Assembly: GCA_001796335.1 (NCBI GenBank)
Contig: MGMF01000014.1
Location: 133,982 to 197,981 of the forward strand
From: Chloroflexi bacterium GWB2_49_20
GTDB lineage: Bacteria; Chloroflexota; Anaerolineae; Anaerolineales; Villigracilaceae
Length of the DNA stretch: 64,000 nucleotides
Direction: 5' to 3'
Below the pieces are notes generated by a model. That model searched no databases and was not told the origin of the DNA. It was given only the letters and a program-made list of their open reading frames with translations. Below, one piece after another: positions 52,794-58,213 of this stretch; position 1 is the first letter of the stretch; each line of letters opens with the position of its first letter. Both the position numbers and the translations under genes were made by a program.

Positions 52794-52804
52794 TACTTAA
52801 ATAG

Positions 52805-52876
52805 CTCCTCGCCGAGGACTTGAACCTCGAACCTAGCGGTTAACAGCCGCCCGCTCTGCCATTGAGCTAGCGAGGA
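52805..52876 (-). tRNA. tRNA-Asn (GTT anticodon)
   Basis: The minus strand folds as a complete cloverleaf: acceptor TCCTCGC/GCGAGGA, D-arm GCTC...GAGC, anticodon stem-loop with CTGTTAA (anticodon GTT) and T-arm CGAGG TTCAAGT CCTCG. CCA is not encoded. It marks the right border of the accessory region and is a typical integration target. Confidence 0.95.
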
Positions 52877-55920: not shown

Positions 55921-57207
55921 TTACGCCCAGCCGCGTAATTGCATGGCCTTGACCACGCGGTCAATGGCGACCATGTAGGCCGCATCTCGCATGTACACAT
56001 TTTCCTTGGTGGACATGTTGAGCACACCGTGGAAAGCGGAAGTCATCTTGGCATCCAGCTTCTCCAAAACCTCTTGCTTCGACCAGTAGAAATTCATATC
56101 GTTCTGGACGCTCTCAAAGTATGAGCAGGTTACGCCGCCTGCATTGCACAGGAAGTCGGGGATGTCGAAGATGCCTTTCTGCTTGATGTATTCATCAGCT
56201 TCTGGGGTGCAGGGGCCGTTGGCGCCTTCCGCCACGATCTTGACGTTTTTGGACATCTTGACGACGGTCTCGGCATTGACATGACCTTCGATGGCAGCCG
56301 GGATGAGCACGTTACAATCCTTTTCGATCCACTTGTCACCGGATTCGATGATGTAACCCGCAGCCTCTGCTTTAACCTTGTCGATGGTGCCGTACTGATC
56401 CACGATGGTCAGCAGGAAGTGCGGATCGATGCCGTTCGCGTGGCTGTAGGTGTAGGAGGTCTTGTCATGGCGATCCCAGCAGGATACGCAGGCGACCTTG
56501 CCGCCCAGCATTTCAATGAAGCCGATGGAGGCATATTGTGCCACATTTCCGAAACCTTCAATGGCAGCTACGCTCTTTTTGGGATCGATGCCCAGGTACT
56601 TCATGGCTTCACGCACGGTATAAATGACGCCGTAGCCGGTGGCTTCGGTGCGTCCGAGTGAGCCGCCGCCGCCCAGGGGCTTGCCGGTAAAGACACCCGG
56701 TGTGAACTGTCCGGTGAGCTTGGAATATTCATCCATCATCCAGCCCATCATCTGCGGGGTGGTGCCGACATCTGGTGCGGGTACATCCTGGCGCGGCCCA
56801 ATATTGCGCCACATATTCTGCACCCAGCCGCGGCACAGGCGTTCTTTTTCTGCAGTTGAGAGAGTAGCCGGGTCGACAATAATGCCGCCCTTGCCGCCAC
56901 CCAGGGGGATATCCGCAACTGCACATTTCCAGGTCATCCAGGTGGCCAGGGCACGTACGGTGTCCAGTGTCTCTGAGGGGTGGAAGCGAATGCCACCCTT
57001 GTTGGGGCCGCGCGCATCGTTATGCTGCACCCGGTATCCCTGGAAAACGCGCAAGCTGCCATCATCCATGCGTACCGGGATGCGGAAGGTAAATTCACGC
57101 ATGGGCCAGCGCAGTGCTTCGCTGATCTGTGGATCAAGATTCAGCTTTTTAGCGACGCCATCAAACTGCTCCTGCGCCATTTCAAATGCATTGATCTGTC
57201 CTGACAT
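55921..57207 (-). CDS. gdhA: Glutamate dehydrogenase (Glu/Leu/Phe/Val family)
   Basis: The protein has 428 residues from the ATG at 57207; a second ATG at 57213 is only one base from the AGGAG site. The substrate-binding GGIRFHP, catalytic PLGGGKGGI and the NAD(P) Rossmann start EGFGNVAQYASIGF are present. It interconverts glutamate and 2-oxoglutarate plus ammonia. Length (about 430) matches the hexameric clostridial/archaeal small class. A structured leader lies just upstream. Confidence 0.96.
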   Translation of the reverse strand: MSGQINAFEMAQEQFDGVAKKLNLDPQISEALRWPMREFTFRIPVRMDDGSLRVFQGYRVQHNDARGPNKGGIRFHPSETLDTVRALATWMTWKCAVADIPLGGGKGGIIVDPATLSTAEKERLCRGWVQNMWRNIGPRQDVPAPDVGTTPQMMGWMMDEYSKLTGQFTPGVFTGKPLGGGGSLGRTEATGYGVIYTVREAMKYLGIDPKKSVAAIEGFGNVAQYASIGFIEMLGGKVACVSCWDRHDKTSYTYSHANGIDPHFLLTIVDQYGTIDKVKAEAAGYIIESGDKWIEKDCNVLIPAAIEGHVNAETVVKMSKNVKIVAEGANGPCTPEADEYIKQKGIFDIPDFLCNAGGVTCSYFESVQNDMNFYWSKQEVLEKLDAKMTSAFHGVLNMSTKENVYMRDAAYMVAIDRVVKAMQLRGWA

Positions 57208-57247
57208 GTTCATCTCCTACTATTGGTTGAAATTGATGTAAAAAACA

Positions 57248-57400
57248 TAAGCGGACACCTCGGAAGAGTGTCCGCTTTATTACGCGTATATGTTGACGAT
57301 TACAATCATAGAGTCTCGCTACTTGGGAACTACTCCCGGGCATTGCGCTTGCCCCTTAAAGTTACACGATATTACAGTTTACGTCAATATGACAAAAACC
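57248..57400 (-). promoter_or_regulatory. Structured leader of gdhA with terminator-like hairpin
   Basis: In the minus direction the leader contains GGGCAAGCGCAATGCCC (stem-loop), GGGAGTAGTTCCC (stem-loop), GTAGCGAGACTC, and then a perfect ten-base stem AAGCGGACAC/GTGTCCGCTT followed by ATGTTTTTT, about 40 bases before the ATG. This is the layout of an attenuator or riboswitch. No known class is recognised by sequence. The hairpin could instead end the upstream enoyl-CoA hydratase transcript. Confidence 0.5.
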
Positions 57401-57460: not shown

Positions 57461-58213
57461 CTACTGGTGGGTTGGGTTGAAATTCGGAAAACGCTTTTCA
57501 AGGAAGGCGCTTACTCCCTCCACATGCTCCTGCCCGTGACTGGCGATCTCCTGCAGATGGGCTTCATAATCCAGGGCATCTTCCAGGTTGGGCAGCACAG
57601 ACTGATTAAAGGCGCGCTTTGCCAGCCCAAAGGCACCCACAGGTCCGTTGGCCAGCAAGCCTGCCAGGCTGGCGCTTTCGGACGCCAGGTCATCAGCGGA
57701 TACCAGGCGGTTGACAAGTCCCCATTCCAGGGCCTGGGTGGCGGGGATGGTGGCATTGCTGAAAGCCAGTTCAGTGGCGCGTGCCAGCCCCACCAGGATC
57801 GGCAAGAACAGCGAGACGCCGGAGTCTGGCGCCAGCCCGATGCCCGCAAACCCGACTGTAAAATGGGCGTTATCGGCAGCAATGCGCAGGTCACAGGCCA
57901 GGGCAATGCCTAACCCGGCGCCTGCAACCGGACCGTTGATCACGGCGATGACAGGCTTGCTGATCTGGCGTATCTGAAGAATAAGAGGGTTGTAGGTTTC
58001 CTGCAGGTGGAGGCGGTAGGAAATTTGCTGACCGCGTGCTGCCAGCATCTCGTTGATGTCATGTCCGGCGCTGAAAACACCCTGCGAACCGGTCAGCAGG
58101 ACGCAGCGTACTGCCGGATTGCGGGCGGCATCCCGAAAAGCAGTCAACAGCCCGGAGATGGTCTCCAAGTTAAGTGCATTGACCGGTGGTCGCTGCACAG
58201 TCAGGGTTAACAC
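57461..58213 (-). CDS. Enoyl-CoA hydratase/isomerase family protein, short N-terminus
   Basis: The protein has 250 residues from a GTG at 58213. It is a crotonase-fold enzyme: FSAGHDINEM (first oxyanion-hole segment), KPVIAVINGPVAGAGLGIALACDLRIAA (second) and the later FLPILVGLARATEL. The usual first strand of about ten residues before LTL..PP.NALN is missing, and an in-frame stop lies three codons upstream of the GTG. The gene may be slightly truncated, or the start may be as read. Probably involved in beta-oxidation or acyl-CoA breakdown. Confidence 0.85.
   Translation of the reverse strand: MLTLTVQRPPVNALNLETISGLLTAFRDAARNPAVRCVLLTGSQGVFSAGHDINEMLAARGQQISYRLHLQETYNPLILQIRQISKPVIAVINGPVAGAGLGIALACDLRIAADNAHFTVGFAGIGLAPDSGVSLFLPILVGLARATELAFSNATIPATQALEWGLVNRLVSADDLASESASLAGLLANGPVGAFGLAKRAFNQSVLPNLEDALDYEAHLQEIASHGQEHVEGVSAFLEKRFPNFNPTHQ

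Follow-up and report, generated by a model that had tools for sequence, protein, structure and literature searches.

The glutamate dehydrogenase gene gdhA in this genome of 3.37 Mb, whose relatives are Anaerolineales (Chloroflexota), is preceded by a leader that probably acts as a ribosome-coupled transcription attenuator, free of any antiterminator and laid out like that of pyrL. Within this leader, a short conserved ORF ends against an intrinsic terminator, so that a translating ribosome probably decides whether gdhA is read. The features are listed in Table 1, with positions referring to the window, i.e., the whole stretch of 64,000 nucleotides that was analyzed.

Table 1. Elements of the gdhA leader and the gene that it precedes, in window coordinates
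Feature	Positions	Strand	Basis or remark
Leader promoter: TTGACG (57387-57382), 17-nt spacer, TAACTT (57364-57359)	57359-57387	minus	Sequence and motif in relatives
Two small stem-loops, GGGGCAAGCGCAATGCCC (57355-57338) and GGGAGTAGTTCCC (57337-57325)	57325-57355	minus	Lineage specific; not counted as part of the switch
Putative leader ORF ATGATTGTAATCGTCAACATATACGCGTAA, read as ATG ATT GTA ATC GTC AAC ATA TAC GCG TAA (MIVIVNIYA, then stop), with NAC-ATA at codons 6 and 7	57309-57280	minus	Conserved position, open frame, codons 6 and 7
Intrinsic terminator hairpin AAGCGGACACTCTTCCGAGGTGTCCGCTT, arms AAGCGGACAC and GTGTCCGCTT	57249-57277	minus	Terminator scan, folding, alignment
T-rich tail ATGTTTTTT	57240-57248	minus	Sequence; T-rich tail conserved in alignment A1
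gdhA, glutamate dehydrogenase (regulated gene)	57213-55921	minus	Pfam ELFV_dehydrog, PF00208 and PF02812

The gdhA product matched the Pfam ELFV_dehydrog entry with an E value of 2.5e-66. Its first possible ATG is at 57213, and a second one, at 57207, is the counterpart of the start in the relatives. The next gene upstream on the minus strand encodes an enoyl-CoA hydratase homologue (57461-58213) and ends at 57461. Among 80 loci of named relatives (L032 to L111), such a homologue was found 5' of gdhA in 48, and gatB (Asp/Glu-tRNA amidotransferase) stood there on the same strand in 26, with a median gap of 217 nt; in the window's genome, the hydratase gene adjoins gdhA and gatB is on a different contig. 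Away from the leader, a tRNA-Asn gene (52804-52876, minus strand) is the single Rfam match of the window at the gathering score.

The first-pass annotation had described a hairpin with a T run ahead of gdhA, and this hairpin is indeed present, with a T-rich tail and a conserved stem. It starts 2 nt past the stop codon of the leader ORF and ends 35 nt ahead of the first possible gdhA ATG. By itself, a terminator scan gave 9 sites in 7 kb versus 7.4 in shuffled sequences, and the case therefore rests on conservation: the five core pairs of the stem form in 77/77 aligned leaders. The leader folded together with its terminator had a z score of -1.95 (10/200 shuffles at least as good). The apical part of the hairpin (57270-57256) is alike in many relatives, often reading CCCGTCCGGGG with a loop NTCC, and looks by eye more conserved than a plain terminator.

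Upstream of the hairpin, we found the promoter motif TTGAC-N18-TA[ACT] in 78/79 of the relatives' leaders, the best promoter score across leaders being 9.1 versus 8.0 ± 1.2 in shuffles. In the window, simple promoter scans favor an overlapping pair, TTGTCA-18-TATCGT, over TTGACG/TAACTT; from the latter, transcription is predicted to start at about 57352. Because this conserved promoter stands 5' of it, the hairpin is the leader terminator of gdhA, and a transcription start downstream of the hairpin, the refutation that had been envisaged at first pass, is made unlikely by the motif. The distance from the -10 hexamer to the leader ATG varies between 9 and 61 nt, with a median of 33 nt and a value of 49 nt in the window. 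It is only 9 to 10 nt in L049, L057, and L105, where the leader ORF would thus be nearly leaderless. Two stem-loops and a GAGACTC segment, also noted earlier, can be read in the sequence, but the stem-loops are not kept in the relatives (10 nt separate the -10 hexamer from the ATG in L049 and L057), and GAGACTC (57317-57311) overlaps a weak Shine-Dalgarno-like stretch of the leader ORF. On the other side of the promoter, the region 57440-57382 and many relatives share common words, such as ATCAC...GTCA...TGTCATATTGAC, perhaps a regulator's site.

The upstream regions that we compared came from the genomes of relatives (GDH match in 60/61; 30 loci kept) and from the 80 loci of named genomes. 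Keeping only those in which gdhA lies on the plus strand, and merging five duplicate pairs, left 82 distinct leaders, mostly of family f1, to which the window belongs; at least L071 and L103 share their leader with the f14 loci L218 and L215. By our search rule, 79 of the 82 have a leader ATG (L083, L098, and L103 have none in range), the spacing from ATG to hairpin core was scored on 81 (L098 has no core by rule), and alignment A1 contains 77 of the 79 (L071 and L105 were left out).

An ATG lies 31 to 36 nt 5' of the hairpin core in 78/81 leaders, versus 10.0 ± 2.8 in shuffles (maximum of 20 among 500), and bins of equal width further 5' hold 1 to 10. It opens a short conserved ORF that the first-pass annotation had not mentioned. 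For the codon analysis, seven shifted copies (see below) and L060, L071, L087, and L105 were omitted from the 79, and the remaining 68 rows were merged into 65 distinct in-frame copies. Codons 2 to 7 of these copies contain no stop, versus 24.5 in column shuffles (2/1,000 as low), and the other two phases contain 35 and 30. A Shine-Dalgarno-like signal peaks 14 to 17 nt 5' of the ATG, with a mean best 8-mer of -3.42 kcal/mol versus -2.07 ± 0.23 in shuffles (n = 79). The stop codon ends between 8 nt before the core and 4 nt inside it in 62/79 leaders, and 9 to 18 nt ahead of the core in 8, whereas 9 ORFs run across the 5' arm or beyond; in all 79, the stop is thus either past the core or no more than 18 nt away from it, as in a pyrL-type leader. 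The commonest length is exactly 10 codons (46/79). The promoter motif, the ORF, the terminator, their spacing, and the conservation of all these are established by sequence comparison. In the window, the stop ends 4 nt ahead of the core and the Shine-Dalgarno-like stretch is weak (-3.5 kcal/mol). A second ATG, at 57343 in another frame and 66 nt 5' of the stem, has a better such stretch and was chosen by an automatic Shine-Dalgarno pick; its frame (minus strand) crosses the terminator, runs past the gdhA start to at least about 57190, where the slice ended, and is not conserved as far as seen.

Codons 6 and 7 of the leader ORF form NAC-ATA, codon 6 encoding Asp, Asn, His, or Tyr in 53/65 copies and codon 7 Ile in 62/65 (ATA in 55, ATT in 5, and ATC in 2). 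ATA is a rare codon, used for 6 of the 101 Ile residues in five window genes. Seven leaders (L006, L040, L054, L070, L079, L095, and L099) have one base fewer between the ATG and ACATA, and their codon 7 is a stop (TAG or TAA) in six cases and TAC in L006. On a tree of the 82 GDH proteins, the shifted label requires 6 changes, at least 5 of which are forced by supported branches. Since the shifted copies keep ACATA, part of the constraint bears on nucleotides and not on codons. The stop at codon 7 seems to stand in for AUA in these copies. Both features of the ACATA/codon 7 constraint would be compatible with a ribosome that pauses at this codon. Similarity of the in-frame peptides was marginal compared with column shuffles (55/1,000 as high for codons 2 to 7 and 45/1,000 for codons 2 to 9), and nearest pairs showed no excess of synonymous changes (9/50 in frame, compared with 7/49 and 13/38 out of frame). 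A peptide under purifying selection was considered but not retained, the signal not being significant; translation as such seems to count for more than its product. We also considered base pairing between the start codon and the CAT within ACATA and rejected it, because f13 copies that start with GTG or TTG keep CATA and the next inner columns are unpaired.

We then looked at gdhA leaders beyond family f1. A model of the leader, R1, gave one match each in 31/61 genomes, all 31 beside gdhA; they cover 31/37 genomes of family f1 and 0/24 of other families, with only 72 candidates scored per genome and with several matches arising by construction, because their leaders were in the model. The leaders of other families have their own ORFs ahead of a terminator. 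In f13, 14 of the 23 leaders with a Shine-Dalgarno signal of -5 kcal/mol or better start 31 to 35 nt 5' of the stem, GTG and TTG starts included, and ATA makes up 7/68 codons at positions 6 to 8 versus 2/178 elsewhere. By the survey rule, which counts some loci twice (e.g., L144 and L172), the terminator or the ORF is missing in 6/31 leaders of f13, 4/17 of f8, 2/6 of f14, 1/2 of f12, and all 6 of f4, f5, f6, and f11.

Gln codons are overrepresented in the leader ORFs, with 35/572 codons in 52 f1 representatives (14 and 15 in the other frames), 22/223 in 23 f13 representatives (7 and 12), and 27/298 in 21 representatives of f7, f8, f9, f12, and f14 (9 and 9); 0/2,000 shuffles were as high in each of the three groups. 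These counts use representatives. The ORFs in the cross-family comparison were picked automatically by Shine-Dalgarno strength and start codon, with wrong picks included (the window's own copy among them), and "f1" there includes some f14 rows. At least one Gln codon is present in 28/52, 13/23, and 13/21 representatives, respectively, and extreme examples among the leader peptides are MSCQQQFQTQS (G048) and MQRAQRQLPRQWFSQGTQQVCRSVLTDVD (G042). The f1 ORFs also show an excess of Ile, Cys, and Asp, and the window peptide, MIVIVNIYA, has zero Gln codons. The idea that Gln-tRNA is made by amidation alone was discarded: gatB passes the cutoff in 19/21 genomes and glnS in 15/21, including the window's own, where by this test Gln-tRNA is not made solely by that route.

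From this arrangement, we infer that the leader ORF is translated, and we propose the following direction of effect and signal. Transcription would start about 40 to 45 nt 5' of the 9-codon leader ORF, whose stop abuts the terminator. If a ribosome trailed RNA polymerase so closely that it covered the final codons or the stop as the hairpin emerged, its footprint would block the hairpin and gdhA would be transcribed; if translation were late or held in the first codons, the hairpin would close and transcription would end. An antiterminator would not be required. The conserved rare AUA at codon 7, or the stop in six of the shifted relatives, would hold the ribosome beside the base of the stem. 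Read-through with a close ribosome, and termination with one that is absent or held early, is the likeliest sign because the window stop ends so near the core and no antiterminator is present. In E. coli, a published study shifted a stop codon from 28 bp to 5 bp upstream of a terminator and saw the efficiency of termination drop from about 90% to under 10%; the effect was lost when translation was uncoupled, efficiency was near maximal with the stop beyond 30 bp, and suppression at 17 to 18 bp varied with the sequence (PMC4824070). The study also found terminators to be efficient near the start of a coding region, in its first 100 bp (PMC4824070). The ribosome may therefore often come too late at the gdhA leader, and the resting state is probably OFF.

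The best candidate for a signal in the group as a whole is the charging of tRNA-Gln. At the Gln codons of the leader ORF, scarce glutaminyl-tRNA would turn gdhA off and plentiful glutaminyl-tRNA would turn it on; expression when glutamine is plentiful would suit an enzyme serving at high nitrogen or in glutamate breakdown. This signal does not carry over directly to the copy in the window, because its ORF lacks a Gln codon; that copy may instead respond to how fast translation proceeds in general or to the supply of Ile/Val. The complete scheme would be a sign-reversed, antiterminator-free attenuator in which tRNA-Gln charging determines whether the ribosome keeps up with RNA polymerase, a fixed pause at codon 7 (AUA or a stop) holds the ribosome next to the hairpin, gdhA is on with plentiful glutamine, and the geometry has been kept across several Anaerolineales families while the sequence drifted. 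We advance it tentatively, as a whole that is rather doubtful.

The leader was initially read as a possible riboswitch or attenuator. The second reading is well supported by the upstream promoter, the conserved terminator, and the conserved short ORF. The stem-loops and the terminator would suit a metabolite riboswitch, but this candidate was rejected and we consider it very improbable: the leader matched no Rfam family at the gathering score, or at E ≤ 10 in 281 bases, and thus no riboswitch or T-box covariance model, and the 77-leader alignment revealed no conserved aptamer. Covariation had been suggested earlier as a check; in the 77 leaders, RNAalifold found 8 consensus pairs, all in the terminator stem, and both partners have changed in 3 of these. 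The terminator stem is thus the only conserved pairing, and the 5' stem-loops are not common to the relatives. Once the terminator is removed, the fold of the leader is no better than that of shuffles (z = +0.30; 126/200 at least as good), and the leader length 5' of the ORF is not conserved. Pairing of the leader with a terminator arm, as in an antiterminator, was weaker than in shuffles (-8.16 versus -8.78), with 22/79 leaders beating their own shuffle mean. We likewise give hardly any credit to a hairpin that merely terminates the upstream gene and has no regulatory role; the hydratase gene is on the same strand, but the promoter motif separates gene and hairpin in 78/79 leaders, and the upstream neighbor varies (gatB in 26/80 loci) while the leader stays.

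Two further readings concern codon 7. A ribosome arrested at or after this codon, whether through its nascent peptide, the AUA codon, or a small molecule in its tunnel, could represent the ON state, with ordinary translation leading to termination as in drug-inducible attenuators such as hflXr. Ile/AUA or a stop fixed at codon 7 and the fixed spacing from ATG to hairpin suit a ribosome halted at one place, and known arrest ORFs include one of only 14 aa (PMC6310831). We find this opposite sign unlikely, as no antiterminator was found and six copies have a stop instead of Ile at codon 7. Moreover, codons 2 to 5 vary freely, which to our knowledge is not the case in known arrest motifs. Alternatively, the ATG and ACATA could be a nucleotide signal, such as an RNA polymerase pause or a protein-binding site, whose spacing to the terminator is fixed, with translation incidental. 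The seven copies, from at least five lineages, that keep ACATA with one base fewer favor such a signal, but the open frame, the Shine-Dalgarno-like signal, the synonymous Ile codons ATT and ATC, and the GTG and TTG starts at equal distance in f13 make it quite an unlikely account. Coupled attenuation has its own points against it: the weak constraint on the peptide, the seven shifted ACATA copies, the weak Shine-Dalgarno stretch and absent Gln codon in the window, L083, L098, and L103 without ATG, and the many leaders of other families without a recognizable ORF and terminator.

Like E. coli pyrL-pyrBI, the proposed gdhA attenuator has a short leader ORF ahead of an intrinsic terminator and needs no antiterminator. 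It differs in gene and phylum, and in its ORFs, which commonly have 10 codons with most stops just before the stem, whereas the longer pyrL frame extends into the region of the terminator, its signal being polymerase pausing set by the UTP supply. In pyrL, a ribosome close behind RNA polymerase suppresses termination by coupling, as two reports describe (PMC5021804, PMC4824070). With the trp and his attenuators, the gdhA leaders share a leader ORF and a terminator; codons for Gln, an amino acid linked to the enzyme, are enriched in the group, sister families included, but absent from the window ORF. Those attenuators rely on an antiterminator and are switched on by a shortage of the amino acid (PMC1183508), whereas we found no antiterminator in gdhA leaders and the layout predicts the opposite sign. 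A short ORF also controls an intrinsic terminator in Listeria hflXr/rli80 and B. subtilis bmrB, where it is translated, as we infer for gdhA. Both of these systems respond to antibiotics and use alternative stem-loops (PMC6310831, PMC4191407), and rare codons alter read-through at bmrB (PMC4191407). A leader-peptide attenuator with a pyrL-like layout is thus known in kind. In the open-licence PMC literature, our searches brought up no account of a glutamine-codon attenuator, nor of a leader peptide for this gene in this phylum, the Chloroflexota.

If our reading is true, nitrogen metabolism in Chloroflexota, a little-known bacterial group, would be under leader-peptide control, exerted by a minimal attenuator that consists of roughly ten codons plus a hairpin and lacks any alternative structure. 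The relatives' leaders offer a natural variant series for testing how the position of a ribosome suppresses an intrinsic terminator, and they are a candidate for a system in which glutaminyl-tRNA is sensed to control glutamate dehydrogenase.
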